In this document: piece after piece, positions 22,535 through 58,644 of the stretch
Numbering within the stretch: the stretch's first letter is position 1
Layout: the number at the start of each line of letters is the position of its first letter
Assembly (NCBI GenBank): GCA_018806915.1
Contig: JAGKQI010000028.1
Coordinates: 1 to 64,000, forward strand
DNA length: 64,000 nucleotides
From: Phytophthora colocasiae
Lineage: Eukaryota > Oomycota > Peronosporomycetes > Peronosporales > Peronosporaceae
Direction: 5' to 3'
Notes under the pieces: generated by a model
Databases searched by the model: none
What the model saw: the letters and a program-made list of their open reading frames with translations, nothing else
Told to the model about the DNA's origin: nothing
Translations under genes and position numbers: made by a program

Positions 22535-22574
22535 GATGCTCAGTTTGGAGAAAGTTCCGCACTGACGAATTATG

Positions 22575-30010: not shown

Positions 30011-30011
30011 A

Positions 30012-30030
30012 TGGTGCGCGTGCCCGGATC
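30012..30030 (+). other. Primer-binding site of B
   Basis: TGGTGCGCGTGCCCGGATC begins two bases after the LTR and starts with TGG, complementary to a tRNA CCA end. The implied tRNA 3' region has C61 and C62 in the T-stem position and A73 before CCA, as expected. The same 19 bases serve element A. It is not the initiator-Met type PBS common in other chromodomain Gypsy elements. It overlaps the gag start codon. Confidence 0.85.
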
Positions 30031-32218: not shown

Positions 32219-32222
32219 GAGA
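32219..32222. repeat. Target-site duplication of element A, left (GAGA)
   Basis: GAGA directly before the A LTR is repeated at 49711-49714 after the other LTR. Removing A plus one copy restores the B gag frame (CRGCGE then IHEAGEC). Confidence 0.92.
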
Positions 32223-32714
32223 TGTCGCGAAGTCGGTGCAACTTTTACCGCGGTGCAGGGGCGTACAGTGAACCTGGAAGTGTGACTACCGGTAGTTGTA
32301 CCAGAGTCGCACAGCAAGGTGGGCGTGTGTTACCTTGTGCTGTCCTCGTAGGTTCGTTGTCTTGGTAATGAGACCCTCGCCGGGGTCTTGAGAGTGTTGA
32401 TGTGAGAGTGAGGGTTCCTTGCGTAGACCGTCGGATGTCCTTCTGATCCTCACAGGAGCGCTTGAGAGTCGAACGTTTTCCGGTGAACACTTGTGTACAC
32501 CAGAGATTTCTGAAAACAAAAGAGAAAATTAATACAATGGAAGTCCTATCACTAAACTTCCGAGATAACCGCAATATAGAGTTCCGATATACAAATATGT
32601 AGCTGCTCTTATTCTTTCCTGGCCCTTGAGCAGTGGGCTAGTTCTCCAGGTCAACTAGGGAAATGTTCACCAGACACCTGGTCTGTCTGGTATTCCCGTA
32701 ACTTTCGCGCACCA

Positions 32715-32733
32715 CCCTCTAATATATAGAGGG
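32715..32733 (-). promoter_or_regulatory. TATA element inside an inverted repeat (A LTR, sense direction)
   Basis: Arms CCCTCTA and TAGAGGG enclose ATATA, giving a TATA-like core in a perfect 7-bp inverted repeat. It is conserved in the other A LTRs (48340-48358 and 23953-23971). Its position in the LTR suits the genomic-RNA promoter; use is inferred. Confidence 0.5.
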
Positions 32734-33249
32734 AAAATAAACCAATACACTATCAGTTATATAACAGTCTACCGAGCGTCTTGAGAGCGACTGTCTAGCT
32801 CCCAAAACCTGTCCAAACGTACAATATGAAATGGGCTACCGCTAGAGACAAGACAAACGACCCAACTAGTAAATGGAATAGGTGGGTCCTCTCAGGTCTC
32901 TACGTTACGCTTATCTCCACCTAAAGGGGCTTGATAGGTGAGAGATCACACAACTCAAAGCTTTGTTGTGGCCTAATACTTACAGGAAGCAGCAGGCAGA
33001 TAGACTTGTTTGTGACAAGGTAAATTGAACTCTGGTTATCTATCTCGTATCTCTCTGTCTTCTATCTTCCATATTCTCATATACACTTGGTCTCAGTATA
33101 ACTCAGGAATCTTCACTTGGGCTCACTATGGTAGTCGATGCTGCAGATCTTGTCGAGTCGACACTTAATGATGTCATTACAGGGATGAGCGGGTTGCGTT
33201 TCACTTGATTGCGTGAGGTTGTGTTGGGTACACTTGATTTCAGTATGGG

Positions 33250-33565
33250 GTGGACTTCAGAGTGTCAGAGTCTGGTATCCTGTTCATCAGGGTCTGGAAT
33301 CATGTGCGTCGGAGACATGTTCATCGGAACCATGTACTCCGGAATCATGTACATCAGAGTCATAAATACCAGAGCCGTGACACTTGGGTCTGTTCATCGG
33401 AGTCTTGTACGTCGGAGTCTGTTCATCGGAAACTGGTAAATGTCTGGAATATTGCTTGTATAAGCCGGACACATCAGACTTGTTCACCAGAATCATGTTC
33501 ATCAGACTCATGTACATCGGACTTCATGTACGTCGGACTCATGTACGTCAGACTTCATGGTGTGA
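33250..33565. repeat. 15-base degenerate word array in the A LTR
   Basis: Roughly 15-base units of the type TGTACATCGGAGTCA or TGTTCATCGGAACCA repeat across about 300 bases, with one exact TGTTCACCAGA at 33481. The same array is in the other LTR (48876-49191) and in A' and A''. Because 15 is divisible by three, several frames stay open across it and yield spurious ORFs on both strands. Confidence 0.85.
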
Positions 33566-33928
33566 TATCAGAGTTTCCATACGTGATACCAGAAATCCAT
33601 GAATGTTTTTAAGGTGCGGAGCACGTATGCTACAACGCACGAAGTCCAATTTGGGATATGCGCGGGGTGCGCTACGTCCGGTGCGCGATACTTGGTATCT
33701 TGTGGGTATAACTGTATTCCTTGAACCATCATCGTCACACAGGACGGCAACGGGATGAGGTCTCTCAGAGATACATTCTTCTGAGAGACTTTCTGCCAAC
33801 CTTTAGGCACTCATCGTCGGGGAAAGTCCGGTGATCAGACTGAGTGTTGTTGTCTCTCGGAGTTTGTGCACTTTTCCGAGGAACACTTCTGATCTCTTGG
33901 GCCCCTTTGCAGTACAGGTGAAGGTTAA

Positions 33929-33965
33929 TATATAAAGCAGTTTTCTTCCACAGACCCATCATATT
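33929..33965 (+). promoter_or_regulatory. Candidate core promoter of the antisense ORF
   Basis: TATATAAAG at 33929-33937 is followed about 30 bases later by TCATATT (33959-33965), which resembles an initiator. The pair lies in the LTR about 175 bases upstream of the antisense-ORF ATG and points toward it. The identical copy in the 5' LTR (49555-49591) would fire outward into B pol. Confidence 0.45.
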
Positions 33966-34084
33966 GTCACACGGGACATAACCTCGTCCCACATCTCCCT
34001 TTCTCCCACAATCCAGTATATGTCCAATCACATCACAGCGAAACTTCCATATCCACTCGAAAAATCGTAATTAGCAACGTGTCA

Positions 34085-34100
34085 ACCGCCCCTCCTGGTC
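34085..34100 (-). other. Polypurine tract of A
   Basis: On the minus strand GACCAGGAGGGGCGGT abuts the 3' LTR start TGACACG. The same tract is seen in A' and A''. Confidence 0.75.
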
Positions 34101-34139
34101 ATAATTCGTCAGTGCGGAACTTTCTCCAAACTGAGCATC

Positions 34140-37100
34140 ATGGCCAGGACAGTACGTCAGAGGTCCCGTGAACATAGTGTAGCTGTGACGCTCTCAAAAC
34201 TTCCGGGATTTCAAAGTCTCTGGTGTCCTGTCGCTCAGTCTGATTCCATCAGACTCAGAAATAGCCAACTGTCGTATCCCACAAACGGCCACATCCCGAT
34301 TTCCTTTCTGACACACAAGTCAGAAGAAGATCCTGCAGCCATGAGTTCCCCATCGGCTTCTACCATTGGCGACGCCTCGGGCACTGGGCCCGCTTCGGCA
34401 TCTGTAGCATCGCGAGGTGGTGGTGACGGTACTTCCGCATCACCTGGTGGCAGCTCAAGCACCCCAGCCTCACAGTCGAGCGCGTCCGCCGCTCCGAAGC
34501 AGGGCGTTGATGCTGCTGACGGCGATGGTCACGTGAACGCGCCTGATGCGTCTACGGCTTCTGCCTCCACGAATCCTTCTTCCGGCGTCTCAACTCCATT
34601 CCCTAGAGGGCCGCACATCCTTTCCACCACTGAGGTGGATAGCCTGTTTGCGCCTGGGCAACAACTATTGGGCGACATGACTGCTGACGCCCCTTCCAAC
34701 TGGGTGGACCCCGAGCCAACGCCTGAAGGACAGCCATTCCTGGTTGGTGTTCCGGCGCTCGCCGAGGACTTCCGTGTGGGCAACCACATCGCGAACATCT
34801 ATGGCGGACCTGGTGTTCTGGTGGGCCTTGAAGAGTTCACGTCGGCGGACATCTCGGAGCTTGAGCGTGTTATCCCTGACTTCACTGAAAGTCAGATGCT
34901 CGTTCCTCACGTGGATAGCCGTGACCGCCAGAACCTCGAAGCGCACATGGGGTCCGTCGATGTCCATCGGGAGTTGGCGTCAATCCTCCTACACCTCCCT
35001 CATCAGCGTCTCGCTGAGCGGGTGTACAAGACATCCGGCTATCTGAAGCAGATGGCCGGCGCTCACCGTCGGCTTCGACTTCAAGTTGAGTCCCAGGGCA
35101 ACACATCTCTGGTGGACACGGCCGCTATCCAGAACGAGTCCGAAGATCTCAAGCGTCAGTGGGTTTTCAACTGCCAGTATTGGCGCCATGAAGTGCTGGA
35201 CGCCCGACGTACTGCTGGTGAGGTCGAAGATCGTCTGAATGCAGAGTCCAAGAGTCTCGCGGCCCATTATCAGGACCAGATAGATGCTCTGGAGTCCGAG
35301 AAAGCGGCCTTAGAGGAACGCCTGGCGGACTCTCAAACGGAAGTCCGGTTGCTGAAGGCTCGCCCCACGACCACGGCCACAGACTCCTGGGGTTTTCTGG
35401 AGTACCTGTTTGAACACGGGGAGTTGAACGGCAATTGGGTGCGTCTTCGGGAGCTTCTGGTGAACTTCCAAGAGGGCAAGGCGCCGCCTGGAGACTGGGA
35501 CACCATCATCAATGTGACGGCAATGGATCAGCGTAAGGCGGAAATTCCTGACTTCTCCAAGCGTCTGGCGAGAATTCGCTTCGATCAAGCTGCGGAGGCC
35601 AAGAAATCGACCAAAGTGTTGGATCTGACGGGTGCTGGCAGTGGTGTGAAGGTCTCCGGTGAACATGCGGGTGGCCCCGAGAAATCAGGCACTCGCCCGG
35701 TGAACAAGTCTGGGTCGCCCACCAGGTCGCCCAAATCTTCCGGATCTCCACCACTCAAGCCCAACCGGCCGTCTGGGAAACATCGGGTTCGTGTTCCTCA
35801 GGATCGCCCCAAGAATTACACGCCTGGTATCGATTCGGTGCGTCCGGCGAACGCCAAGTCTCCGGTGTCCAAGGACGCGGTTCACACCACATTACCACCT
35901 GGAGTCGTCTGGGAAGAAGTTCGTCCGGACTTGCGCTTGGCTCTGCTCGCCGGCATTTCTTACGAGACAGCGATGAAGTGGCTGCGCACGGACAAGCCCG
36001 CCCACAGTCTGTTCACGGGGCGCCCCTTGGTAAAAATGCTAGTGAGCATGATGTACTGGCGCAAGCTGAATCAGACCCCGTGGACTTCGTACGTCCCAGA
36101 GACGTATTACAAGATGGCTGAGGAGGAACTGCGCCGGCTTCGGAAGAATGATGTGGAGCCACCGGTCTGGGAGGCACTGGACGCTCACGTCCCGTATCCC
36201 ATCAGCGAACCTGAGTCCACAGAGGATGACCCTCAGAAGGACCCGGACTTCAAGGAGTCTGGTGAACAAGAATCGGCGTCTAGCGACAGCGAGTCTGACG
36301 ACGAAAAGTCGAGCGGCAACAGCGATGACTCTGACGACGATGAGTCTGATGATCATTCGCACGCCGGCAACAAGCGTCCACGGGACTACGAGTCCAGTGA
36401 TTCAGACGACTCGGGTCCGATAATCCCTACCAAGAAGTCCAAGCGGGATAGTGTACACGAGGCATCCAGGTCCAAGTCAAGCGGTCAGAAGTCCGGTGGC
36501 ACCTCCACGTCAAGTCCCAAGAGCAAGAAGTCCAGTGGTTCGCCCAAGTCGAGTTCCAAGGACAAGAAGTCTCAAGACTCCAAGTCGACTAAGAGTTCTT
36601 CGGGCAAGCGACCTTCTGGTAAACTCCGGAAGTCAAGTCTGGTGTCCAAGTCATACAAGTCGCTAACGCCAAAGGAATTACTGACGATCGAGGCCCCGGA
36701 CACACATTGTTCTTCGTGGCTGTATTACGGCATTCCGGTTCAGCCGACAAGTGACACCAAGACGTCCATCGGGCAAACCCCAGGGTTCCCAGACTTCGAG
36801 CCCCACAGACACAGTCTGGCACGCCTGAAGAAACGTTGGAACTCTAAGAAGTATCAAGCCCTGCTGGACGAAGTGCCAGCGCCCTGGGACGTCATGTACC
36901 AGAACCGTCGGACCGAGCTGTACTTTCACCGACGTGAAGACCTCTGTCCCTTGGTTCAGGCGGACATCGAAGAGCTCGCGTCTCTCATGCGCAAACACGC
37001 CCAAGCACTGTGGGAACGCACTCACTGGGTGATAATGGATCCCGACGAGGACCTGCTGTCCGGTGAACAGCACAAGGAACGTGGGCTCCGACGTGCATCT

Positions 37101-37427
37101 TTACTGCGCCAGTATCGAGGGGCAGTTTCCAAGATTCTGAAGCACAAGGACTTCCCGGAGACGCTCATGTTCGAGCCTGGTATCTGGAAGGTCCCGGACA
37201 AATATTGCCCATGGATCTGGCAGGACCCACGTGCACGTGACATCGGAGGTCCCAAGTGCCTGAGCTTGCGCAAGCAACTCGAAGCTATCGACTCAGCGGA
37301 ACCGGCGCGCACGCAGTGGGCCACAGCGTCTTCCGACAAGGACTGGATGGAATTCGTGCCATCCGATCTCCGGAAACAAGCTCTAACGCCCGCTGAACGC
37401 GCCGAAAATCCTGTCTCTTTGAAGTAA
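34140..37427 (+). CDS. Long antisense ORF of A (1095 aa, unknown function)
   Basis: The gene is read opposite to gag and pol and starts 55 bases inside the 3' LTR. I do not recognise the family. Residues 1-60 resemble nothing known; 60-150 are Ala/Ser/Pro-rich; 150-300 look globular; about 330-407 form a charged coiled coil (DALESEKAALEERLADSQ). Residues 585-690 are a Trp- and Leu-containing globular region, 695-740 are Asp/Ser/Glu-rich, and 743-770 carry NLS-like NKRPRD and KKSKR. Residues 775-840 are Ser/Lys-rich. About 900-1060 is a conserved C-terminal domain (HRREDLCPL, HAQALWERTH, DIGGPKC). No signal peptide or membrane segment is visible, so an Env role is unlikely; a nuclear role fits. 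The C-terminal block recurs in B's antisense ORF. The frame is open here and alignable in A' and A''. Start choice: the first ATG, kept in A''. Confidence 0.85.
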   Translation: MARTVRQRSREHSVAVTLSKLPGFQSLWCPVAQSDSIRLRNSQLSYPTNGHIPISFLTHKSEEDPAAMSSPSASTIGDASGTGPASASVASRGGGDGTSASPGGSSSTPASQSSASAAPKQGVDAADGDGHVNAPDASTASASTNPSSGVSTPFPRGPHILSTTEVDSLFAPGQQLLGDMTADAPSNWVDPEPTPEGQPFLVGVPALAEDFRVGNHIANIYGGPGVLVGLEEFTSADISELERVIPDFTESQMLVPHVDSRDRQNLEAHMGSVDVHRELASILLHLPHQRLAERVYKTSGYLKQMAGAHRRLRLQVESQGNTSLVDTAAIQNESEDLKRQWVFNCQYWRHEVLDARRTAGEVEDRLNAESKSLAAHYQDQIDALESEKAALEERLADSQTEVRLLKARPTTTATDSWGFLEYLFEHGELNGNWVRLRELLVNFQEGKAPPGDWDTIINVTAMDQRKAEIPDFSKRLARIRFDQAAEAKKSTKVLDLTGAGSGVKVSGEHAGGPEKSGTRPVNKSGSPTRSPKSSGSPPLKPNRPSGKHRVRVPQDRPKNYTPGIDSVRPANAKSPVSKDAVHTTLPPGVVWEEVRPDLRLALLAGISYETAMKWLRTDKPAHSLFTGRPLVKMLVSMMYWRKLNQTPWTSYVPETYYKMAEEELRRLRKNDVEPPVWEALDAHVPYPISEPESTEDDPQKDPDFKESGEQESASSDSESDDEKSSGNSDDSDDDESDDHSHAGNKRPRDYESSDSDDSGPIIPTKKSKRDSVHEASRSKSSGQKSGGTSTSSPKSKKSSGSPKSSSKDKKSQDSKSTKSSSGKRPSGKLRKSSLVSKSYKSLTPKELLTIEAPDTHCSSWLYYGIPVQPTSDTKTSIGQTPGFPDFEPHRHSLARLKKRWNSKKYQALLDEVPAPWDVMYQNRRTELYFHRREDLCPLVQADIEELASLMRKHAQALWERTHWVIMDPDEDLLSGEQHKERGLRRASLLRQYRGAVSKILKHKDFPETLMFEPGIWKVPDKYCPWIWQDPRARDIGGPKCLSLRKQLEAIDSAEPARTQWATASSDKDWMEFVPSDLRKQALTPAERAENPVSLK

Positions 37428-37813
37428 GTACGCCAGAAGTCCGGTGCACTCTTCGCGACATCTCCGGGGAACTACACTTCTTCTTCCAGAACAACTTTGT
37501 CGTCTGCATATCGTAGCGTAGTAACAATTCCAAATATAGTTCCCCGACGACCTTCTCCTTTAACATCCTCATATGTCGTTCAGTAATCCTCTTCTCATAG
37601 CATCATCATAATCCACTTCGTAAAATTCCACCATACACACACAACCACAAAATCATCTCCATACAAATTCACATAACAATCACCATCTCTGGGAGTCACG
37701 TATCCCCGAAATCATTTTTTCCGAAAGACATGTCTCTCAGACACCTCATCTCTGAAATACATCGTCTGGTGAACAGTGATGTTCACCAGAGTTCTCAGAA
37801 TAAGTTTCAGAGT
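37428..37813. other. Convergent spacer of A
   Basis: This 386-base gap lies between the stops of pol and the antisense ORF. No coding signal is seen. It contains a perfect 11-bp hairpin (37765-37790, loop GTGA) made of two inverted copies of the family word, and a 16-base palindrome (37808-37823) that spans the pol stop codon. It probably serves as the 3' processing region for the antisense transcript; the genomic RNA must read through it to the LTR. Confidence 0.6.
37765..37790. repeat. Perfect hairpin formed by two family words
   Basis: TCTGGTGAACA, loop GTGA, TGTTCACCAGA. It is conserved perfectly as a stem in A'' (18914-18939) with one compensated arm variant, and decayed in A'. Confidence 0.85.
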
Positions 37814-40800
37814 TTAAACTCTGGGGTGATCGTCTCCAGCTTGCATTGCTTGGAAACGAGCTCGCGCTCGTGCGCTCTGATTGAATTCATACAACAAAGC
37901 GCCACAGTTCAGCTTTGACAAGGGTAGCCACTCTGTCTCGTCGTACCCCTTCCACTTGACCAGGTATTCGCGAAGTCTCTTGGAGGTCCTAGTACGCTTA
38001 CTCCACCGAGTGTCTAGTATCTTTTCCACCTCGTATTCATCGTTCTCGGTGTCGGGCTCCCAACTGTCTTCTGGTAACAGTGCTGCATCAAAGTCATCAT
38101 CCTCAGGGACATCAAGTTCCACAGTCGGTCTTCTGGGAAACAAGGCTCTCGGCTTCAGGCGACTTATATGAACCCAAGGGTTCACCCGATATCCGGTGTC
38201 CTCGACCTTCAGTTTCACACGAAAATCATCCAACATCTCCTCAATCCGGAAAGGACCATGCCACATGTGTGCGAGTTTCCGACTCAACCCCGTTTGTACC
38301 TTGGGGATGTATAACCACACAGCATCACCGACGGCAAATCCGGACTTCAGGCGTTCTGACAACTCCTTCCACTTTCGGGTCTGTTCTTCAGAACGCTCCC
38401 GCTTGGCTTTCTTCTGGAGTTCTTCAGCACAGGCTTGAGCGTAGCTGTAATCTCGCTGCATCTTCCGACGCCACTCATAAGCAGTGCGCTCTTGTACACC
38501 AGAAGGCTTTGGACCAAGCATCGCGGACACAGTCCCATGAGCATCCCATCCGTGCACCAGAAAGAAAGGTGTTTCCAGACGGGTCGCATCAAAGGAAGTA
38601 TTCAATGCGAACATCAGACGCTCGGCGTGGTCGTCCCAGTCACTCTGATCAGCTTCGGCGATGTAAGCCTTGATGGCGCGCACGACCGTCTGAACAGACC
38701 GTTCTTGTTGGCCGTTCGCCTGGGGACGGTACGCCAGAGTCGCTCGCTGTCTGCTTCCCAGGAGGTCCCGGAAACACCTGAACACTTCACTCATGAACCG
38801 AGGGTCTTGATCATGGCGTATCAGGGAACTAGCTCCGAAGTTCCGGAAGACACGTTCCTCGTAGGCCTCAGCGACATCTTGAGCCGTAGTAATACTCATA
38901 GGCTTGCACATCACATATCCTGAGAACATGTCTTGGAACAACAACAGGAACGTGTTGCCTCTGGCAGACTTTGGCATGTGCGTCACGAAATCCATGGACA
39001 CCACTTCAAAAGGTCGACTGGGTTCGATGTTGCCGGGCGACGGTCCAGGATTCGGGGGACGCCCCTTGCCACTTGCACAGTCCATACACTCCTTGACGAA
39101 CCTCTCCACATCAGCATACATACCAATCCAGTAGAACTCGGAGCTCAGCTTCTCGAACGTACGTTTGATTCCCTGGTGAGCACCCTGGTAGTCCCCATGA
39201 GCATAGTGCAGCATATCAGCATGCAAGTCTCTGGGAACCACAAGTCTGAGTTCATCAACCATGTCTCTCGGACGTTCTCTGGTAGCACGGCTGAGGCGGT
39301 ACAAAACGTCTCTGGAATCCAAGATGAAATCATCGGCAATCCTGGCAAGCTTCCTTACTCGGGGTCGTGGTAGATCTCCCACGTCACCCTTAAGGAACTT
39401 GATGAGTTCTGCCAGATGAACATCTTGAGTCTGGTGAACTTTGATCCGCCGCCAGCGTTCTTCCTGAAACTCCAATGGGCCCATGGGTTCACGGGCCTCC
39501 GCGTCATCTGGTAGGTTTGCTTCTTCCTGATCGCGTGCACGAGTGATGGCAACAAGCACCTTGGCAGCATGAGGCAGGGGCGCAGACTCTGGCCCTGGGT
39601 CATCCATCTCTAGTGTACAATGATGTTCACCAGAGGTCTGGTGAACATCGTCCGGAGTTTCAGAAGACACTCCTTCGGGAGGCTTCATCAACTTCTCTGG
39701 GATCTTGGACACCAGCTTCAGATGAGTCAGTTCGTCAGGGTCTTGGACCTGCCAGGACTCGCCAAGAACAAGAGTCTTGGACGTCAAATAGTCCGCTGCT
39801 TGGTTGAACTCACGCTTCACGTGCACTAGCTTCAGAGACTGGAACTTGATCTTCAGAGACTCAAACTCGGCCAATTTCCGCTGCAGGTTCGGCTGATTAC
39901 AATTGATCAGACCTTGGGCTTGCTGGATAGCAATACGGGAGTCTCCGACAACTACCAAGTCTCGGATGCCACGTTCCAAAGCCAACTTCAATCCATTGAT
40001 CAAACCACAGTATTCTGAGTCATTCACAGTGACATCTTTCAGAGCGAACCCTTGGGCTTCCAGGATGTTCCACCCCGGGAGCTCCCAGAGCACACATCCG
40101 CAGCTTCCCAGGCGAGTGGATGTCTTGGCGGCACCATCAAAACTTAGAACACAACCTCGGTAATCAGCCTCTAGCATCTCCACGCTAATGGGTGCTGGAG
40201 GTTTGACTCGCCCCTTGACGGGGATGAGGTTTTCAGAGACCTCATCGAGGTGTTCACGGGGTGTGATGCCCGCTCCAAGAATAGCCGGGAGACCATCTTC
40301 ATCTCGCTGGATTCTGCGAATCTCCAAGTTCCAATGTGACAACTTCAATCCCCACTTCACGTTCCGACCATCAGCCGAGCTGGATGACAGGAGCCATTTC
40401 AACACCGAATGTCTGGTATACACCGTGATCACGGGACTCGTGTTTACCAGAGCCCGAAAGTTCTCCAGAACCCTGAGAATCGCGATGACCTCCTTCTCTG
40501 CAATGTGATACCGGAGTTCTGCCTCATTCAGCACACGTCCAGTGAACCGTACGGGGTGTATCACTCCATCGTATTCCTGCCCCAAGACGGCTGAAGCAGC
40601 CCACGGGTTCGCATGAGGTATAATAACGAAAGGCCTGGTGCGATCTGGGTGTCTGAGGAGCGGTGTCGAGACAATCTTGCGCTTCAGAATCTCAAAGGCT
40701 TCCTTAGCTCGAGCCAAATCTCGACCAGCACGAATCTGTTCATCAGACAACTCGTAGAGCACAGCAGCGATCACCGGTAAGTCCTCGATAAACTTGTTGT

Positions 40801-43477
40801 AGTAATTCAGACTTCCCATGAAACTCTGTACTCCCTTGAGTGTCGACGGGAACGGCAATTCCTCCACTCCCTTGACGATCTTCGGTGTAGCTCTCAGTCC
40901 TTCAGCACTGATCTCATGCGACAGATAAGGAATCGTCAGCTTCCCGAACTCGCTCTTGGGCAAGCTCACAGAAATGTTCCAGTATCTGAGTCTGAAGAGC
41001 AAGGCGTTCAGGTCTTCACAAAGTTGATCCCAGGTGGGCGCCCCATGAGCAATGTCGTCAATGTAGGAACTTCGACCGAGTACCGGTCCCATGAATGACG
41101 GGACTGGGATGTTCCTCTGAAAGACAGTCATTTGGTCGGTGAGCACCGGAACCTCTGGCATGTGTTCATCAGAGTTCTGAAGTTGTTCACCAGACATCAG
41201 ACCATGTACGTCAGAGTTCTGGGGTTCAAACTTCAGGAATTCCAGCACATCGGAGTCAACCTCAGCTTCTTCTTCAGGTGACAATCGTACGAACCCCCAC
41301 AGGCAGTTATCCAGCATAGCCTGGTACACCAGAGGGGCGTTCTTCAGACCGAAGGGCATTCTTACCCACTGGAAATGTCCAAATGGGCAGATGAACGCTG
41401 AGATCAGCCTCGCACGCTCCGTCATTCGAATAGCCCAAAAACCACTCGCCATATCCAGACTCATAAACCACAGTGCTGCCTCAAAACCAATCAACAGATC
41501 GTCTATCAGGGGCAACGGATAACGCGACAACTGGATAAAACCATTCACCACTCGATAATCAATACACATGCGTATGTCCACACCATTCTTCTTGAGGACA
41601 ATCACAATTGGTGATGCCCAAGGCGAAGTCGAGTACTCGATGAGTCCGGTCTCCAGGAGTTTCTTCAGAAGTTCGTACACCTTGATCATCAGGTGAGGGG
41701 CAACGGACCTCGGACGTTGGGCAACAGGTTTAGCGTCTCCCACGTCCAAGTCACAGACCACGCCCCTTGCCGGGGCAGGTGCGGCGTTGCCGTCTCCCAG
41801 AAAGATTTTCCGATGATACTTCAAAATGTCCCTGAGTTTCTTCTCCATCTCCGGCGTTGTTTTCCCGGGTACTCCGACGTCAGCCTTGTCGATGTCGCAT
41901 TCGGGAGTCAAATCTTCCAGTTCAGGTAGCATAACCAGCTGATCGCGTAATTGAGAGAGCAGCTCTGTTCCTTCCCGTATGTAGACACCGGGTTCCAGAT
42001 CCAATTCCTCATTCGTGACTCGCATGCACCGCTCGTACTCGGCTCGGAGCTTTTCCACAGGGGTGCCTGGCATACACTGGATTGGGATGTCCCATGAACA
42101 GTCTGTCGGACCCTCATCTCCCATGAACAGTTCACCAGAAACACTCAAGGTGACTTCATCCTCGACAATGTTACTCGAAATTTCAGACGTGTTTCCGGAG
42201 CCTTTCGGAGTCTTTTGCTCTGATGACAATCCCAGTTCTCCGGTGTTCACAGCGGTATCTCGGGTCTCCTCTTTTCCGGCATCCACCCAGTCATCTGTCT
42301 GCGTAGCCACATTCAAAGCGAAACGAACTTGTTTTGCTCGTGGGACCGAAGTAGGCCTCACAAACTGTACTTGAGCATTATCCAGCCTTGGGCGTTGTAA
42401 GATCTTAGTTGGCCACGGGTATACCGGGTGATCTACACACGGAGGTTGAGGCATCAGATCCTCCAAGTCAGCTTCGGCCTTCAGGCGTCTCTTCGTTTCT
42501 GGTGACGGAGTGTTCTCCAGAATCAAAACTTCCCAGTCGCGGTAGGCTGCAGAGCCTGGCCGTACAAAGCGACCATGTCGTGGGAAAAATCCATACTCCA
42601 CAATCCTTGCAACGTCAGAAAATTCATTCACCCACGTATTCTTGTCAGAAATGTTCACTACGCGCACCGCCACAGGCCATGACCGGGCTGCATAAATCAG
42701 CTGAGTCACCCAACGGTCTCCACGTCCCGCCCACACGACTTCTCGTTGTGGGTTCGTCGGACCATAGTCAATGCGAACAACGAATTCTTCACCAGGCCTC
42801 AGGAGTACAGCTTCACTTGGTCTGATGGACCTGTTCCTGCCGATATGATCACCAGGCTCCCAGCTGCACATCATCACCACGACTTCATCTGGCATAGATA
42901 CCAGTCCCTCACGAACGCTGATCCTCAGACCAGCGGCGAACATGAATCCCATTCCCAATAGCACGTTTATACCTTCGCCGATATTCGCAACCCAGACATC
43001 AACAATGTAAACCACTCTCGGTCCGAGAGTCAGCTTGATCTCAGCACTGGCACCAATGTACGTCGGAACTCCTCCCATCCCAGACACTCTTGTTTGTTTG
43101 TGTGACTTGAGCCTGAGTCCGAGCTTACGCGCAAAGTCGTAACTCAGGATGTTGATAGTCGCACCGGTGTCCAGGAGAATCTTGGTCCGATGATCATTGA
43201 CAGCGCCATGCACCATAACCACATCACGCTTTGCAGGATCAGGGTAGTGATCCTCCCACCAGCCATAACATTCCCCGTCTTTCAGACGAAACTGGATTGT
43301 GTCGTCCGGAGGCGGTTCATTGTCTCTCGGAAAGTCCGGTGAACAGTCTCTCGGAAAGTCCGATGAACTGTCTCTCAGACGCGGAATTTCTGAAGACATG
43401 GCTGATTCTTGAGCTAAAGCGGTCATGCAATGTTGATTTTTAGGTTGGGTTGTTTTCAGCTCCGGTCCTACGTACAC
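37814..43477 (-). CDS. pol: Pol of A (protease, RT, RNase H, additional RNase H, integrase, chromodomain)
   Basis: This is an intact 1887-aa polyprotein. The aspartic protease has LLDTGAT (Asp about 103). RT has WASPIVIVLKKNG, CIDYR, LDMASGFW, MPFGLKNAP and catalytic YIDD (about 805). RNase H has AEKEVIAIL and YTRHS. A second, cellular/archaeal-type RNase H lies at about 1105-1240 with SFDGAAK, NDSEYCGL, VVGDSRIAI and HVKREFNQAAD. Integrase has the HHCC module (HYAHGDYQGAHQG ... CMDC, about 1420-1465) and D-D-E residues in MDFVTHMP, RHDQDP and GQQERS. A GPF motif (about 1739) and chromodomain (about 1805-1850) follow. It makes and integrates the cDNA; the chromodomain may direct it to marked chromatin. 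Gag and pol are separate frames 65 bases apart (gag stop at 43543, Pol Met at 43477), so the mode of Pol expression is unclear. Confidence 0.95.
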   Translation of the reverse strand: MYVGPELKTTQPKNQHCMTALAQESAMSSEIPRLRDSSSDFPRDCSPDFPRDNEPPPDDTIQFRLKDGECYGWWEDHYPDPAKRDVVMVHGAVNDHRTKILLDTGATINILSYDFARKLGLRLKSHKQTRVSGMGGVPTYIGASAEIKLTLGPRVVYIVDVWVANIGEGINVLLGMGFMFAAGLRISVREGLVSMPDEVVVMMCSWEPGDHIGRNRSIRPSEAVLLRPGEEFVVRIDYGPTNPQREVVWAGRGDRWVTQLIYAARSWPVAVRVVNISDKNTWVNEFSDVARIVEYGFFPRHGRFVRPGSAAYRDWEVLILENTPSPETKRRLKAEADLEDLMPQPPCVDHPVYPWPTKILQRPRLDNAQVQFVRPTSVPRAKQVRFALNVATQTDDWVDAGKEETRDTAVNTGELGLSSEQKTPKGSGNTSEISSNIVEDEVTLSVSGELFMGDEGPTDCSWDIPIQCMPGTPVEKLRAEYERCMRVTNEELDLEPGVYIREGTELLSQLRDQLVMLPELEDLTPECDIDKADVGVPGKTTPEMEKKLRDILKYHRKIFLGDGNAAPAPARGVVCDLDVGDAKPVAQRPRSVAPHLMIKVYELLKKLLETGLIEYSTSPWASPIVIVLKKNGVDIRMCIDYRVVNGFIQLSRYPLPLIDDLLIGFEAALWFMSLDMASGFWAIRMTERARLISAFICPFGHFQWVRMPFGLKNAPLVYQAMLDNCLWGFVRLSPEEEAEVDSDVLEFLKFEPQNSDVHGLMSGEQLQNSDEHMPEVPVLTDQMTVFQRNIPVPSFMGPVLGRSSYIDDIAHGAPTWDQLCEDLNALLFRLRYWNISVSLPKSEFGKLTIPYLSHEISAEGLRATPKIVKGVEELPFPSTLKGVQSFMGSLNYYNKFIEDLPVIAAVLYELSDEQIRAGRDLARAKEAFEILKRKIVSTPLLRHPDRTRPFVIIPHANPWAASAVLGQEYDGVIHPVRFTGRVLNEAELRYHIAEKEVIAILRVLENFRALVNTSPVITVYTRHSVLKWLLSSSSADGRNVKWGLKLSHWNLEIRRIQRDEDGLPAILGAGITPREHLDEVSENLIPVKGRVKPPAPISVEMLEADYRGCVLSFDGAAKTSTRLGSCGCVLWELPGWNILEAQGFALKDVTVNDSEYCGLINGLKLALERGIRDLVVVGDSRIAIQQAQGLINCNQPNLQRKLAEFESLKIKFQSLKLVHVKREFNQAADYLTSKTLVLGESWQVQDPDELTHLKLVSKIPEKLMKPPEGVSSETPDDVHQTSGEHHCTLEMDDPGPESAPLPHAAKVLVAITRARDQEEANLPDDAEAREPMGPLEFQEERWRRIKVHQTQDVHLAELIKFLKGDVGDLPRPRVRKLARIADDFILDSRDVLYRLSRATRERPRDMVDELRLVVPRDLHADMLHYAHGDYQGAHQGIKRTFEKLSSEFYWIGMYADVERFVKECMDCASGKGRPPNPGPSPGNIEPSRPFEVVSMDFVTHMPKSARGNTFLLLFQDMFSGYVMCKPMSITTAQDVAEAYEERVFRNFGASSLIRHDQDPRFMSEVFRCFRDLLGSRQRATLAYRPQANGQQERSVQTVVRAIKAYIAEADQSDWDDHAERLMFALNTSFDATRLETPFFLVHGWDAHGTVSAMLGPKPSGVQERTAYEWRRKMQRDYSYAQACAEELQKKAKRERSEEQTRKWKELSERLKSGFAVGDAVWLYIPKVQTGLSRKLAHMWHGPFRIEEMLDDFRVKLKVEDTGYRVNPWVHISRLKPRALFPRRPTVELDVPEDDDFDAALLPEDSWEPDTENDEYEVEKILDTRWSKRTRTSKRLREYLVKWKGYDETEWLPLSKLNCGALLYEFNQSARARARFQAMQAGDDHPRV
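39624..39647. repeat. Inverted pair of family words inside pol
   Basis: TGTTCACCAGA and TCTGGTGAACA lie two bases apart within the coding sequence after the second RNase H (encoding DVHQTSGEH). The A'' copy at about 17053-17076 keeps both arms perfectly. Confidence 0.85.
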
Positions 43478-43542
43478 TAGAACACATAACTCTGGGGGTG
43501 TGCCTTGCCCGGCGCGTTTCGGATCCCCATCCGACGGGCTTG

Positions 43543-46500
43543 CTAGTTTAACTGTTTCCCAGAGTCAGCCTCGTCACCCAGGAGTCTCTCCAGTAGGTGA
43601 TCCGGCAGGTCCTTCAGTGTACCTTGACGGGCTAGTTTCTTGAGGGATTCCAGAGTCTTGATGTCTTCGCATGGTCTCCCAGAGTGCACCTTCCCGCAAA
43701 CCTCACACGGCGGTACTCGGCACATCCTGCTCGGGTGACCTTTCCCCTGACACCTGTCGCAGACAATGTCCCTCCAGCAGTTTTCTTCTGAATGGCCTGA
43801 GCGACGACACTTCTCGCAGAACTTGTTCCAATAGTCAGGGTTATCGCGCCGTGTCTGCTGGAAATCTTGACCTGACGCTCCTCGGGGAGACTGGGGCGGC
43901 GGTCGCCATCCCATGTTGTCCATGACCCGATAAACTTCGTTTGTCAGAGTCTGAGTCCAATCAGCACCGCCAGGCGCCTGAGAGGCAGATTGTACACCAG
44001 ACGAAGATTGTACGCCAGGCATCTCGCGATCGTGCTCTGACGACGAAGCTCTGGCATCCTTCTCTTGAGTTCTGGTATCCGCATCGACATCGTCAGAGGC
44101 ATCCGGGTCTGCTTCTCGGGCGACGTAAGTCTTCCCCATGCGCTTCGGCTTAAACTGTCCGCGTGGGAGATTGTCCGCTCGGAAATCCCGATGTCTGGTG
44201 GTTGTAGTGTCTTGATCAGCAGTTCGCCAGACATCTTCGTCCTGTTGCAGAGCATATTCCAAGTCCGAGATACTCCTGAACTTCCGGCCTTGTAACGCGA
44301 TCTTCAGACGCTCGTCCTTCAGCTTGGTGATGTACCTCAGGACATGTTTCTCCAGGCGTCTGGAGGATTTTCTGAAGTCCACCTCAGCTTTTCCGGCGGC
44401 CGAGTTCAGGCGATAGAAGAAGTCCAACGGAGTCTCGGAATTCTTCATTTCCATCGTGAAATATCTCTCGGAGTATGATGACCGGGCCTTGCAATAACGC
44501 CTGCGAAACTCCGACGATAATTCCTTCCAGTCACGGGAAACGCTCTTCGGAAGCTGGTTGAACCAGTCTCTGGCAGACACTGGGAGCTTCAGCTTGAGCT
44601 CTTGTATGCGGGTCTTGTTCGTCCATGCTCCCTGAGATGCCATGTTCACGAAGCGCTCCCACCAGTGAACACGCTCCCGTAATGTCGCTCGGGGATCAAA
44701 TTCTCCGATGATACTTGAGTTTATGAAGGGCCTCATAGTCAGCAGAGTCGCTCCAGCTTGTCCATGGGACGCAGAAGTCAGGTTGACCACCTCCGGAGGA
44801 TCCAAGTCATCAGAAGACGAATCACTTGAGTCCGAGCTTGAATCACTGGAGCTTCCACCCGGGTCTGGGTCATTCCTGCGTCTTCCAGGCCTTCGAGGAG
44901 CGTCCCGGCCATCTTCAGAGCGTCTTTCGCTTGGTTTCCGGTGTCCTTCGCGCCTGGGAGTCGCTGGGCGCCTTCCTTCAGTCTTGATCTCGGTCAGGGG
45001 AGCCGCTTGAGCCGTCTGGGTCGTCGTAGCGGCCGCGGTGGCCGCGCCATGCCTTCCAGCCTTCGCGCGCTTGGTGTCGGTCGATCTCCGTAAGGGAAGA
45101 GGCGCATGGAAGGCCTCCGTCGTTTTAATGGGTGTAACCCTACCCCTGCTGGCGACTCCTTCTGATCCCCTAACCCCAGGTGTGCAATCTCCCGTATCCC
45201 GACTGTTCACCAGAAGTCCGGTTGCCGGTTTAGGGTCATGTTCACCGGAGATCCGACTTGAAGTTGCTACTTCAGGGTGGGCGACCCCTTGAACTTGGGA
45301 CAATGTTGCACGAAGGTTCCTCAATTCTGCGGCCTGGAAACGCTGCATGTTCTGGGAACTTTCCCGCTCCCTGTCGCGCTCCGACTCCACGTCGTGCACC
45401 CGCTGTCGTAAGGTCTCCATTTGCGAAATCCAGTCACGTTTCAGCTCGTCTGCCCAACGCGCACGTTCGGCTTCGGCCTCGGCTTCCCGTTGTTTCCAGC
45501 GATCTGCAAACTCGGTCTCCAGACGCTGTACATCGGAAAACCGTTCACCAGAAACTTGTTCATCGGACACCTGTCTCTCAGACGATTTCGAATGGTACTT
45601 GAGCTTGGACTCTGACGCTTGACTCCGACGTTCTTCCAAGTCATCCGCGCGTCTCTGGGCTTCCAGTCTGGCGCTCTCAGACTCAAGTAGTCGGTCGGTA
45701 AGTGTCTGGATCTGCTGGCGCGTATCAAGTTCCCGTTGTTCACGTCGACGTTCACGCTCCATGGATTCCAGACGTTCTCTGGCCAGAAATTCCTTCTGCT
45801 CCTGTTCCATTCGACGCTGCCATTCCTGTTGCTGCCGCATAGCGTTCAGTTCGATCTGCGCTGGGCCTGATCTCTGGGAACCTCGTGTGTGGCTTGACGC
45901 AACGGAACTCAGGCGTCTGGAAGACACTTTCTGGTGATCCTCGCTCTTCAAACTCTGGTGCCTGCTCTGGTGGCTTCTCCCACGACTCGAGACGGCCGAT
46001 GCTGGAGCTTCCGGCGTCCGGTGAACAGAATCTCCGGTAGACAACTGTCTCTCGGACTTCACTTCAGGAAACTCCGGCTTCTCTTCCAACATCTCGAAGT
46101 CATCGGGCTCCGACTTCACCGGCATCAGTGTTCGTGTCACGTGGATTCCCATAGACTCTCCGGCGAGCATCCCTCCGGCTTCAGCACCTTGGGCGATCAT
46201 CGCCAGACCTCCGACAGACAACGGCATATGTGCAGACGCCCCTCGACTCATGGACATCAGCGACGAGTCTGTGGAACTTCCACGAGAGGTCTGGAGTCCC
46301 GACGAGTGGTCATCCGACGTACGCGAGGTCCCGATGACACTTGGCACAGGCGCATCAGTCGTCAGAGAGCTGCCTCGATCTTCAGACATTGGTACACCAG
46401 ACTCCAAGCGAGTGCTATCAGAGTGACTCTCGTATACCGGCAGTGAACTCAGCGACGGCGTCGACAGTGCAGATGGTGTCGACGAGACTTGTGGGCGCGG

Positions 46501-47757
46501 CGGACCATGCTGTAGGCGCTTGGACTGCGGCGGTTCTCCACTGCTGGACCCATCAGAACTATGTGTGACTCTGAGTCCGGTCACCCGGAGTCTCAAGATC
46601 AACTGTCGTCCTTGCAGATCAGCATTCTCATCGCGTAATATACCATCAGCTTCGCCTTGACGTGCTTCGTTGCCTGCCTTTGTGTATTCTGGGAGTCGAT
46701 TGGCCTGTGACCTGGCGGTCACCGTGGCCCACTCAACCAGTTCTTCAGCAAGTCGGCTCTGAAGTTCCGTCGCCACACTGCGTACTTGAGGTTCGAAGAT
46801 AGCAGACGCTTGGGTCTGAGACCACCTCGGTAGCAGGTTCTGGAACTCAAATCCTGCTTCATACAGCATCGTCTGAAGGACGGCGACGCACTCGGGTGCC
46901 GTCAGAGTATTCATCGAGATCTCGACGTATGACAAGTCTTGGATTCGGCCAAAACTATGGCGCCTCAAGCAGAACTCCGATATCCACATGTCTTCCGGAA
47001 ATACTGAAGAACACCGCCACTTGATATAATCGCCCGTTGCTGCCGCAGCCTTCTGAAAGACATTTGCGTCAGGCTTCGCTGTTCGCCAGGCGTATTCGAC
47101 GTTCGGCGGAACAATTCTTCCAGCGTCCATGTCCCTCCAGCGGCGGAACTCACGGCGCACGTACTTCAGGGCACGTTCTCCATCCAGCGAATCAGCCCTC
47201 CCAGACTCATCAGACGGTGTCTTCAGAGAATCTTCGGACTTCATCGGCATGTCGTCAGACATCGGAGTGTCTTCGGACTTTGGAGTCTTCGAGACACGAT
47301 CATCAACCAGTCCGGGTTCTGTCTTCACTTCCCCCACGGACTTCCCAGAAGCCGTCGACTCAGAACACAAGTCAATGACCTCCGGGGACTCAACCACGTC
47401 GGCGCCTCCCTCAGACGCCTCATCACCACCCTCACGGGCAGTGGCCACTTCGTCACCAGAAGCTTCAGCTTCGGACGGACCTTCCTCAGAACCTTGTTCG
47501 CCAGACACATCGGGTGTCCCTTGGGCTTCAGGCTCCGCAGCAGGCTGGTCTTCGACCGCCGGTTCCGGGACGTTCACCTCCTCGACTGCTTCCTTTTCAC
47601 GTGCAGCCTTCCTCTTCTCGCGTGCCGCCTTCTGAACAGCATCCAAATCGAGTTGTTCGTCAGGCGGAAGACCTTGAAGACGCTTCGACTGACGTGTCGC
47701 CATACTGCGACCACCGCGTCCCCGACGTCCTCCTCTCGTAGTTCCATGTGAAGCCAT
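43543..47757 (-). CDS. gag: Gag of A (1404 aa, coiled coil and three zinc knuckles)
   Basis: This intact, unusually long Gag has an Arg/Gly-rich start (GGRRGRGGRS), an acidic disordered N-third, and a long charged coiled coil at about 640-850 (EWQRRMEQEQKEFLARERLESM...). A basic/Ser-Asp linker follows. The retrotransposon-gag domain is at about 1060-1230 (WWERFVNMAS, SARDWFNQLP, FYRLNSAAG). Near the C-terminus are zinc knuckles CEKCRRSGHSEENC, CDRCQGKGHPSRMC and the variant CEVCGKVHSGRPC. It would form the particle and bind RNA. A 91-base leader separates the LTR from the ATG at 47757. Family words are embedded in its coding sequence (45204, 45239, 46017). Confidence 0.95.
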   Translation of the reverse strand: MASHGTTRGGRRGRGGRSMATRQSKRLQGLPPDEQLDLDAVQKAAREKRKAAREKEAVEEVNVPEPAVEDQPAAEPEAQGTPDVSGEQGSEEGPSEAEASGDEVATAREGGDEASEGGADVVESPEVIDLCSESTASGKSVGEVKTEPGLVDDRVSKTPKSEDTPMSDDMPMKSEDSLKTPSDESGRADSLDGERALKYVRREFRRWRDMDAGRIVPPNVEYAWRTAKPDANVFQKAAAATGDYIKWRCSSVFPEDMWISEFCLRRHSFGRIQDLSYVEISMNTLTAPECVAVLQTMLYEAGFEFQNLLPRWSQTQASAIFEPQVRSVATELQSRLAEELVEWATVTARSQANRLPEYTKAGNEARQGEADGILRDENADLQGRQLILRLRVTGLRVTHSSDGSSSGEPPQSKRLQHGPPRPQVSSTPSALSTPSLSSLPVYESHSDSTRLESGVPMSEDRGSSLTTDAPVPSVIGTSRTSDDHSSGLQTSRGSSTDSSLMSMSRGASAHMPLSVGGLAMIAQGAEAGGMLAGESMGIHVTRTLMPVKSEPDDFEMLEEKPEFPEVKSERQLSTGDSVHRTPEAPASAVSSRGRSHQSRHQSLKSEDHQKVSSRRLSSVASSHTRGSQRSGPAQIELNAMRQQQEWQRRMEQEQKEFLARERLESMERERRREQRELDTRQQIQTLTDRLLESESARLEAQRRADDLEERRSQASESKLKYHSKSSERQVSDEQVSGERFSDVQRLETEFADRWKQREAEAEAERARWADELKRDWISQMETLRQRVHDVESERDRERESSQNMQRFQAAELRNLRATLSQVQGVAHPEVATSSRISGEHDPKPATGLLVNSRDTGDCTPGVRGSEGVASRGRVTPIKTTEAFHAPLPLRRSTDTKRAKAGRHGAATAAATTTQTAQAAPLTEIKTEGRRPATPRREGHRKPSERRSEDGRDAPRRPGRRRNDPDPGGSSSDSSSDSSDSSSDDLDPPEVVNLTSASHGQAGATLLTMRPFINSSIIGEFDPRATLRERVHWWERFVNMASQGAWTNKTRIQELKLKLPVSARDWFNQLPKSVSRDWKELSSEFRRRYCKARSSYSERYFTMEMKNSETPLDFFYRLNSAAGKAEVDFRKSSRRLEKHVLRYITKLKDERLKIALQGRKFRSISDLEYALQQDEDVWRTADQDTTTTRHRDFRADNLPRGQFKPKRMGKTYVAREADPDASDDVDADTRTQEKDARASSSEHDREMPGVQSSSGVQSASQAPGGADWTQTLTNEVYRVMDNMGWRPPPQSPRGASGQDFQQTRRDNPDYWNKFCEKCRRSGHSEENCWRDIVCDRCQGKGHPSRMCRVPPCEVCGKVHSGRPCEDIKTLESLKKLARQGTLKDLPDHLLERLLGDEADSGKQLN

Positions 47758-47827
47758 CTTGAATATAGACGCTTGACAGAAACCCTCTTCTCAAACTCTC
47801 TTAGATCCGGTGATATCACGATACCAA

Positions 47828-47846
47828 GATCCGGGCACGCGCACCA
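47828..47846 (-). other. Primer-binding site of A
   Basis: The minus-strand TGGTGCGCGTGCCCGGATC begins two bases after the 5' LTR. It is identical to the PBS of B, so both families use the same tRNA, which I cannot name from memory. Confidence 0.85.
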
Positions 47847-47848
47847 GT

Positions 47849-49710
47849 TGTCGCGAAGTCGGTGCAACTTTTACCGCGGTGCAGGGGCGTACAGTGAACC
47901 TGGAAGTGTGACTACCGGTAGTTGTACCAGAGTCGCACAGCAAGGTGGGCGTGTGTTACCTTGTGCTGTCCTCGTAGGTTCGTTGTCTTGGTAATGAGAC
48001 CCTCGCCGGGGTCTTGAGAGTGTTGATGTGAGAGTGAGGGTTCCTTGCGTAGACCGTCGGATGTCCTTCTGATCCTCACAGGAGCGCTTGAGAGTCGAAC
48101 GTTTTCCGGTGAACACTTGTGTACACCAGAGATTTCTGAAAACAAAAGAGAAAATTAATACAATGGAAGTCCTATCACTAAACTTCCGAGATAACCGCAA
48201 TATAGAGTTCCGATGTACAAATATGTAGCTGCTCTTATTCTTTCCTGGCCCCTGAGCAGTGGGCTGGTTCTCCAGGTCAACTAGGGAATGTTCACCAGAC
48301 ACCTGGTCTGTCTGGTATTCCCGTAACTTTCGCGCACCACCCTCTAATATATAGAGGGAAAAATAAACCAATACACTATCAGTTATATAACAGTCTACCG
48401 AGCGTCTTGAGAGCGACTGTCTAGCTCCCAAAACCTGTCCAAACGTACAATATGAAATGGGCTACCGCTAGAGACAAGACAAACGACCCAACTAGTAAAT
48501 GGAATAGGTGGGTCCTCTCAGGTCTCTACGTTACGCTGATCTCCACCTAAAGGGGCTTGATAGGTGAGAGATCACACAACTCAAAGCTTTGTTGTGGCCT
48601 AATACTTACAGGAAGCAGCAGGCAGATAGACTTGTTTGTGACAAGGTAAATTGAACTCTGGTTATCTATCTCGTATCTCTCTGTCTTCTATCTTCCATAT
48701 TCTCATATACACTTGGTCTCAGTATAACTCAGGAATCTTCACTTGGGCTCACTATGGTAGTCGATGCTGCAGATCTTGTCGAGTCGACACTTAATGATGT
48801 CATTACAGGGATGAGCGGGTTGCGTTTCACTTGATTGCGTGAGGTTGTGTTGGGTACACTTGATTTCAGTATGGGGTGGACTTCAGAGTGTCAGAGTCTG
48901 GTATCCTGTTCATCAGGGTCTGGAATCATGTGCGTCGGAGACATGTTCATCGGAACCATGTACTCCGGAATCATGTACATCAGAGTCATAAATACCAGAG
49001 CCGTGACACTTGGGTCTGTTCATCGGAGTCTTGTACGTCGGAGTCTGTTCATCGGAAACTGGTAAATGTCTGGAATATTGCTTGTATAAGCCGGACACAT
49101 CAGACTTGTTCACCAGAATCATGTTCATCAGACTCATGTACATCGGACTTCATGTACGTCGGACTCATGTACGTCAGACTTCATGGTGTGATATCAGAGT
49201 TTCCATACGTGATACCAGAAATCCATGAATGTTTTTAAGGTGCGGAGCACGTATGCTACAACGCACGAAGTCCAATTTGGGATATGCGCGGGGTGCGCTA
49301 CGTCCGGTGCGCGATACTTGGTATCTTGTGGGTATAACTGTATTCCTTGAACCATCATCGTCACACAGGACGGCAACGGGATGAGGTCTCTCAGAGATAC
49401 ATTCTTCTGAGAGACTTTCTGCCAACCTTTAGGCACTCATCGTCGGGGAAAGTCCGGTGATCAGACTGAGTGTTGTTGTCTCTCGGAGTTTGTGCACTTT
49501 TCCGAGGAACACTTCTGATCTCTTGGGCCCCTTTGCAGTACAGGTGAAGGTTAATATATAAAGCAGTTTTCTTCCACAGACCCATCATATTGTCACACGG
49601 GACATAACCTCGTCCCACATCTCCCTTTCTCCCACAATCCAGTATATGTCCAATCACATCACAGCGAAACTTCCATATCCACTCGAAAAATCGTAATTAG
49701 CAACGTGTCA
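47849..49710 (-). repeat. 5' LTR of A
   Basis: This is the near-identical partner of 32223-34084. The sense promoter candidate (TATA in an inverted repeat) is at 48340-48358, and the word array is at 48876-49191. It is followed at 49711 by GAGA and the rest of B gag. Confidence 0.95.
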
Positions 49711-49714
49711 GAGA

Positions 49715-49830
49715 TCCATGAAGCTGGAGAATGCCCCATGGAGGAATTCTACAACCAGATCCGCAAGTGGTACGATCCGACCCGACATGCCGGATTGTTC
49801 CCCGATAAGGTGGAAAAGATGTTAAACTAG
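49715..49830 (+). pseudogene. Gag of B, C-terminal 39 residues
   Basis: This continues B gag after the A insertion. It completes a third knuckle, CRGCG-E-I-H-EAGEC (CX2CX3HX4C), the same variant seen in A Gag. It ends with LFPDKVEKMLN and TAG at 49828-49830. The total Gag would be 775 residues. Confidence 0.9.
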
Positions 49831-49892
49831 GACGCTCGCCGGTGTGGAAACCGGTACGAGCCGAGCGTTCTTAGTATTGCATCTATGCATAT

Positions 49893-55363: not shown

Positions 55364-55741
55364 GGGAGGCTAGGCGAGGTGACAGGGTTGCCTCGCCGTG
55401 ATCAAGGGAGCTGATGTGGAGGAGAATCCAGATCAGAGCGAGAATTTTATATTTGTGTATATGCATGTGTGCAGGGAATTTGACGTTGGAGAAATGGTGA
55501 TCTGGAATGTCGAGATGGGGATGAAAGGGGATCACGTTTGCAAAATGATGGAGTACGATGGGAACGACTGTGGGAATGGAGATTACGAGAGTCACGAATG
55601 GAGATTACGAGAGTCACGAATGGACATTATGAAAGTTACGAATGGAGATGGGAGAACGCAGAACGGCCCTAGATGGGGCTCCGAATCCGAGCTCAGGGAA
55701 AAGCCCCTAGCCTTGCTGCAGGTGATCGAAGTTAGCACGAC
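55364..55741. other. Convergent spacer of B
   Basis: This 378-base spacer lies between the stops of pol and the antisense ORF, almost the same length as in A (386). It carries three tandem 22-base units at 55574-55639 (GAATGGAGATTACGAG...). A plus-strand ORF across it is not supported by homology. Confidence 0.65.
55574..55639 (+). repeat. 22-base tandem repeat (3 units)
   Basis: Units start GAATGGA and end GTCAC or GTTAC. The first two are identical and the third has five changes. Confidence 0.85.
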
Positions 55742-58541: not shown

Positions 58542-58635
58542 CGTGAAGGAGGGGTGGTGCTTGTACGACTTGTGTCCCAGGTGACGAATGTGGAAATAAG
58601 CCCGAAGTGAGCTGCGGTAGCCCAACTTACGTGCT

Positions 58636-58644
58636 GGGGGCGGA
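58636..58644 (+). other. Polypurine tract of B
   Basis: GGGGGCGGA directly precedes the 3' LTR start TGTGGTG. It resembles the GGGGCGG core of the A tract. Confidence 0.7.

Follow-up and report, generated by a model that had tools for sequence, protein, structure and literature searches.

Why should a retrotransposon repeat one short DNA word along its whole length, its genes included? We address this question in a stretch of 64,000 nucleotides from Phytophthora colocasiae (contig JAGKQI010000028.1, positions 1–64,000, forward strand; hereafter the window), in which a Ty3/gypsy long terminal repeat (LTR) retrotransposon, element A, lies inserted in another element, B. A preliminary description of the window had reported that the 11-base word TCYGGTGAACA, or its complement TGTTCACCRGA, recurs in both orientations throughout the LTR, spacer, gag, pol and an antisense open reading frame (ORF) of A. 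We find that A, B and a sister family of A, termed D, each abound in a word of their own. Our reading, to which we assign a probability of roughly 0.55, is that in these Chronos families the word, running along the whole element, would be the binding site of the protein encoded by the family's own antisense ORF (aORF), by which the family's DNA would be marked and regulated. The whole study covers three families, two of them sisters, in one genome (assembly of 92.5 Mb).

All 18 positions reported for the exact word in 32223–49710 match, and since three of these sites occur once in each LTR, 15 of them are independent. The whole window holds 30 exact matches, where shuffles give an expectation of 0.05; the remaining 12 sit in two further A copies (about 1–6335 and 12190–24461). 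The related forms noted alongside the exact word (TGTTCATCGGA, TGTACGTCGGA and TGTCTCTCGGA) all fit a single degenerate word, TCYGRNRNACA, which we call the A word. It occurs at 65 sites in the non-redundant part of the element (32220–47845, the 3' LTR plus the internal part; 15.6 kb), against a mean of 1.7 over 60 resampled sequences. Across these sites any base may stand at positions 6 and 8 (C seldom at 8), whereas position 3 is restricted to C and T and positions 5 and 7 to A and G; the flanks carry little information. Patterns with a disallowed base at position 2, 5, 7 or 10 give 4 hits in total over 10 alternative patterns; positions 1 (C), 3 (A), 4, 9 and 11 bear some change, with counts above expectation. 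Element A, its words and its further copies in the window are laid out as follows:

32223–49710, minus strand: element A (copy A2), flanked by the 4-bp target site duplication GAGA
32223–34084, minus strand: 3' LTR, 18 words
34140–37427, plus strand: aORF, 1095 amino acids (aa), 7 words, candidate reader of the word
37428–37813: spacer between aORF and pol, 5 words, including the inverted pair 37765/37780
37817–43477, minus strand: pol ORF, 1887 aa, 19 words, with protease, reverse transcriptase, ribonuclease H (RNase H), a second RNase H (RVT_3), integrase and chromodomain
43546–47757, minus strand: gag-like ORF, 1404 aa, 16 words, assigned by position and without a Pfam hit
47849–49710, minus strand: 5' LTR, 99.6% identical to the 3' LTR (LTR length about 1.86 kb)
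12190–24461, plus strand: second A copy, partial, 93% identical
1–6335, plus strand: third A fragment, 88% identical

The spread over all five regions and both orientations thus holds for the degenerate word as well, with 25 words on the plus strand and 40 on the minus strand. Within ORFs lie 42 of the 65, in several frames, and the densest group is an array in the LTR. In this array (33303–33552) the words are mostly 15 bp apart in one orientation, which recalls the tandem repeats of the targets of VANC proteins in Arabidopsis. Protein coding does not account for the counts: in 500 synonymous-codon shuffles each of gag, pol and aORF, the A word reached means of 1.7, 2.2 and 1.0 and maxima of 6, 6 and 5, all below the observed 16, 19 and 7. 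The exact 11-base word exceeds its shuffle maxima in gag (3 vs 2) and pol (4 vs 3) and equals its maximum of 3 in the aORF. The word is also specific to the family. In the 27.9 kb of the window outside A there is no exact copy, as had been claimed for B and for a further family, C, and there are two A words; 20 stretches of 2 kb drawn at random from the genome (40 kb) as background have none. Genome-wide, TCYGRNRNACA occurs 19109 times, against 4051 for the pattern read backwards.

By its combination of domains, a second RNase H and a chromodomain, element A is of the Chronos type. RT_RNaseH lies at residues 945–1048 of pol and RVT_3, which we take to be the mark of the archaeal-type RNase H, at 1113–1233, so that the additional RNase H stands beside the original one; the chromodomain (PF00385, 1815–1867) is C-terminal to the integrase. 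The aORF lies between pol and the 3' LTR, on the strand opposite to gag and pol.

The words are held in place at the level of DNA. Their positions are conserved in the window's diverged A copies, where 47 of 51 aligned words are kept in the 93% identical copy and 24 of 32 in the 88% identical fragment. We further compared 31 words, in the aORF and 1.5 kb on each side, over the best 29 of 41 other places in the genome that match the aORF. Only 17 of 4281 cells (0.4%) had changed at the fixed letters, against 5.3% outside words; by region, the rates were 0.4, 0.3, 0.7 and 0.2% in LTR, aORF, spacer and pol, against 3.1, 6.9, 3.8 and 3.7% outside. At third codon positions, fixed letters of words changed in 1 of 400 cells (0.25%) and other letters in 5147 of 41049 (12.5%). 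When word sites were shifted with codon phase kept, none of 5000 shifts gave a change rate as low as that observed. Copies share ancestry, so the cells of these counts are not independent, and we give by-position Fisher tests beside them: the positions that never changed make up 13 of 14 third codon positions in words vs 717 of 1425 others (p 0.001), 51 of 55 codon positions of all kinds vs 3111 of 4268 (p 0.0002), and 90 of 100 non-coding positions vs 1331 of 1622 (p 0.02). Where changes do occur at the degenerate letters, they stay within the degeneracy (C and T exchanged in 23 of 23 at Y, A and G in 28 of 29 at R7). Position 6 changes at a flank-like 5.7% and position 8 at just 1.3%. This constraint reads as the footprint of a DNA-recognising protein, and the words are very probably protein binding sites.

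The preliminary description took the pattern to imply that the DNA itself, irrespective of protein, is either selected or copied. Selection is supported, since the word letters are nearly frozen, third codon positions too. Neither of the outcomes named there as refuting, a similar density elsewhere or counts in the range of codon-preserving shuffles, was observed. Copying, by templated insertion, slippage or conversion without selection, falls as a general cause, and we regard it as highly improbable: positions 6 and 8 take all bases over the 65 sites while positions 3, 5 and 7 are restricted, little information extends into the flanks, the words of coding regions fall in several frames, and the synonymous positions inside them hardly change. 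What speaks for copying is that many LTR words lie 15 bp apart in one orientation, and this array does look locally amplified.

If the words are bound by a protein, a related family might be expected to show how the pair evolves. Element D (C50:622941–640096, LTRs 99.3% identical) is assigned to Chronos by the 85% identity of its pol to that of A; what we know of the family comes from this one full element and four aORF pieces of other copies. D is rich in another word, CTCTGRNRWC, with 40 sites against 2.3 expected (18 and 22 on the two strands), and holds 8 A words against 1.5 expected. Counted over A, D and B, TCYGRNRNACA has 65, 8 and 1 sites, CTCTGRNRWC has 16, 40 and 0, and GATC, to which we return below, has 72, 75 and 307 (resampled 89, 89 and 124). 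In the aORF region, each of the four other D copies has 18–21 matches to a wider form, TCTGRNRWC, and no A word. Within D, 63 of 80 sites are kept, and the letters TCTG and W change at 1–5%, against 8.8% outside; the word of D is looser than that of A.

At the corresponding places of D, most A words are lost. Between the two families identity is 85% in pol, 67–74% in gag and 53% in the aORF, a conserved and fast-evolving ORF. Of the A-word sites, 36 map to D without gaps, and three of them are still A words; at the mapped sites 6.4 of 11 bases agree, where phase-matched windows have 7.9, and none of 5000 simulations came out as low. A-word sites are more diverged from A to D than their surroundings, though they are nearly frozen within A. 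Word positions in A and D overlap mostly near chance in nine tests on gag, pol and aORF, two of which fell below 0.05 (pol within 3 nucleotides, p 0.01; gag within 15 nucleotides, p 0.04). The two words share the core TCYGRNR and differ in their flanks, which fits a reader with shifted specificity. In a simple account, a D-like word would be ancestral, and the A lineage would have gained new words once its reader had changed.

These sister families bear on who the reader might be. Gag, the integrase–chromodomain protein or a host factor could bind the words instead, coating or compacting the cDNA, steering integration or recruiting host transcription or chromatin factors. The words span the whole element, coding regions and both strands, as expected for a cDNA coat; Pfam reveals no DNA-binding domain in the aORF; and D's words differ from A's only modestly. 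A reader encoded in pol or by the host is nevertheless hard to reconcile with different words in sisters whose pol is 85% identical, and if the reader were a host factor that silences the element, selection would remove words rather than favour them. We consider such a reader rather unlikely, and lean slightly towards the aORF product as the predicted reader of the word.

Element B offers a third case. The statement that B lacks the exact word is correct, but it overlooked that B has its own word, GATC. B is split by the insertion of A:

28687–32222, plus strand: B left part, 5' LTR and gag region, GATC 27.4 per kb
49711–59986, plus strand: B right part, pol with second RNase H and chromodomain, antisense ORF region and 3' LTR, GATC 23.5 per kb
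55742–58311, minus strand: B antisense ORF region, two ORFs of 516 and 310 aa

The element has the target duplication GCTG and LTRs 97.5% identical; RT_RNaseH and RVT_3 both lie in the ORF 52837–54516, and the chromodomain (PF00385) at residues 218–268 of the ORF 54500–55360. GATC, unrelated to the A word, runs through the LTR, gag, pol and antisense ORF region. The 12.5 kb of B's non-redundant part contain 307 GATC, against 124 with dinucleotide composition kept, and 49711–60000 contains 241, against 38 expected from base composition. A B-like fragment at 24462–25700 has 17.8 per kb; the density is 2.7–4.0 in three stretches of the window that belong to neither A nor B. Of the 20 random stretches, L047 and L050 have 22–27 per kb and are relatives of B; the remaining 18 average 4.3. 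L047 (G000:C9:2200001–2202000), drawn as background, has 45 GATC in its 2 kb and is much diverged from B. In four B ORFs the observed GATC counts exceed the maximum of 300 codon shuffles (65, 51, 23 and 31, against means of 34, 25, 15 and 22); in the second antisense ORF the count, 18 against a mean of 14, is within the range of its 300 shuffles.

DNA-level constraint on GATC is seen in most comparisons. For B's left part, GATC sites were kept at 97.8% against 86.6% for the surroundings relative to L050 (reciprocally 96.4 vs 87.9%), and at 93.4 vs 86.8% relative to another B copy, L061; relative to the much diverged L047, 79–86% were kept vs 65–68%. Comparisons over little sequence or few sites give a mixed picture: between B's two LTRs, 0 of 116 GATC bases changed vs 11 of 1208 others; the fragment 24462–25700 gave 94.6 vs 93.3% and 97.7 vs 94.0% relative to B; and the right part against L050 gave 100 vs 93.5% at 9 sites, reciprocally 91.7 vs 94.3% at 12 sites.

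Side observations concern B and the rest of the window. In the copy of B that the window contains, the antisense frame falls into two ORFs, and residues of about 171–332 of the first are unlike those of most other copies; many other B copies have one longer open antisense frame, which in several is about 1000 aa long. A (47826–47846, minus strand) and B (30012–30032, plus strand) share TGGTGCGCGTGCCCGGATCTT immediately inside the 5' LTR, likely the same primer-binding site. The non-A stretch 6336–12189 has a weak excess of words of the type GAAC-GTTC or ACCGTTC, and a word scan of 60000–64000 gave nothing above the cut-off.

Two further explanations come to mind. GATC could be a substrate of N6-adenine methylation (6mA), and the words adenine-methylation marks used or exploited for regulation. 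The 307 sites in B fit this, as do a report that P. infestans and P. sojae have 6mA but no detectable 5-methylcytosine (5mC) and the finding, in the same source, that five of six recombinant DAMT enzymes render lambda DNA DpnI-cleavable (PMC6211444). The words of A and D, however, are not GATC, and neither element has a GATC excess; we judge methylation marks improbable. Signals acting in RNA (packaging, splicing, small-RNA targets or hairpins) might be suspected from the close inverted pairs 37765/37780 and 39624/39637 and from the unequal strands of A. With words on both strands in A and likewise in D, and with a word in B that is its own complement, we reject this explanation, which keeps a very small probability.

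We return to the aORF protein as reader. The ORF is conserved: in P. colocasiae at least 42 places match it (the window's included, some partial), 22 of 42 without an internal stop, as judged from scoring the best 42 of 1764 first-look candidates. Its relatives in P. capsici, P. palmivora and P. sojae are 30–46% identical, and P. citrophthora, P. ramorum and P. cinnamomi have relatives too; scans of viral contigs with the aORF and pol of A found no relatives. Genome searches with antisense proteins beyond A's, those of three relatives or the genome's own, in which the best candidates were scored, brought up the types of A, D and B; no other family appeared among these candidates. By eye, the protein has basic patches resembling nuclear localisation signals, and a low-confidence model has a long helix at 324–406.

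We envision that this protein, a predicted long coiled coil with basic patches, would be imported into the nucleus, occupy many sites simultaneously on copies of its own family and leave aside other genomic DNA, in which words arise by chance at low density. Binding would keep the chromatin of the element open, as sequence-specific anti-silencing, or otherwise govern its own transcription. That anti-silencing or self-regulation is the purpose we propose tentatively; the target of anti-silencing would probably not be cytosine methylation, since 5mC went undetected in the two Phytophthora species mentioned above. The wider picture, on which we are evenly divided, is of a private self-recognition code, in which a putative DNA-binding reader encoded in antisense is paired with an element saturated with its word, genes included, each family controls its own copies, and both reader and word switch when families split.

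Several observations weigh against this interpretation. A Pfam scan of the A aORF gave nothing convincing, and AlphaFold models are poor both for the whole protein (pLDDT 41.7) and for its C-terminal piece (49.7). An intact B-type antisense ORF of 992 aa in L061 aligns weakly with the A profile, and over no more than its C-terminal part (E 8e-5, hhalign probability 61%), and a database search with the B-type ORF found no relative. Constraint in D is mixed, with R7 and C9 changing at 13.8% against 8.8% outside, and the A-versus-D contrast in rate is a single comparison. Turnover is one-sided: 28 D-word sites mapped in A are 65–83% identical against 58–76% overall, and 5 of the 28 are still D words, while A holds 16 D-type words against 2.8 expected. 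Finally, positions 6 and 8 together change within A copies at 6.5% in the LTR and 2.2% in pol, with 2 of 406 in the aORF and 1 of 277 in the spacer; the near invariance in the latter two means that the free letters vary over sites more than over copies.

Were the proposed recognition to hold, self-encoded, word-based recognition of an element's own DNA would extend to retrotransposons, in a group whose two tested species lack detectable 5-methylcytosine, and would not be peculiar to Arabidopsis MULEs or to cytosine methylation. A, D and B would supply natural family-matched pairs of protein and word for studying the evolution of DNA specificity, the antisense ORFs of large gypsy elements would have a function, and here would be a case of an overlapping DNA code that shapes protein-coding sequence.

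Self-recognition words dispersed over both strands, in and outside coding sequence, are familiar from the DNA uptake signal sequences of Haemophilus and Neisseria, which serve transformation and lie in bacterial chromosomes, whereas the words here lie in transposons. A literature search over titles and abstract openings, with most subscription journals outside its scope, found no description of words of this kind, whether in LTR retrotransposons or in oomycetes. In the oomycete Chronos elements of the Ty3/gypsy group, the original RNase H is described as accompanied by another of archaeal type, and the integrase as followed by a chromodomain (PMC5348765); A and B share the second RNase H and the chromodomain; the main text of that paper does not use the term antisense, and its passages on these elements do not mention dispersed words. 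Plant Retand elements have a long region from pol to the 3' LTR with an antisense TRP28 ORF predicted to bind DNA, for which a regulatory role was suggested (PMC11963269). The antisense ORF of A occupies the same place, between pol and the 3' LTR, but Retand is a non-chromovirus plant lineage, TRP28 (PF04195) is not among the Pfam hits of the A aORF at E<=5, and the pertinent passages on Retand describe tandem repeats, not a dispersed word.

The nearest known system is the sequence-specific anti-silencing of Arabidopsis VANDAL transposons by VANC proteins, which the present case resembles. VANDAL families have their own short degenerate words (YAGTATTAY for VANC21, another for VANC6), bound by a family-encoded protein that brings about hypomethylation of the element (PMC5735166); protein and word co-evolve between related families, and the density of words matters (PMC5735166; PMC10398659). 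Common to both systems is a family-specific short word that is enriched in the element and rare elsewhere. VANDALs are DNA transposons (MULEs), whereas A, B and D are LTR retrotransposons of an oomycete; VANDAL words lie mainly in non-coding tandem repeats, whereas the words here also fill coding regions on both strands; and where VANC binds its word, the protein that may do so here is a candidate, encoded in antisense and predicted from sequence.

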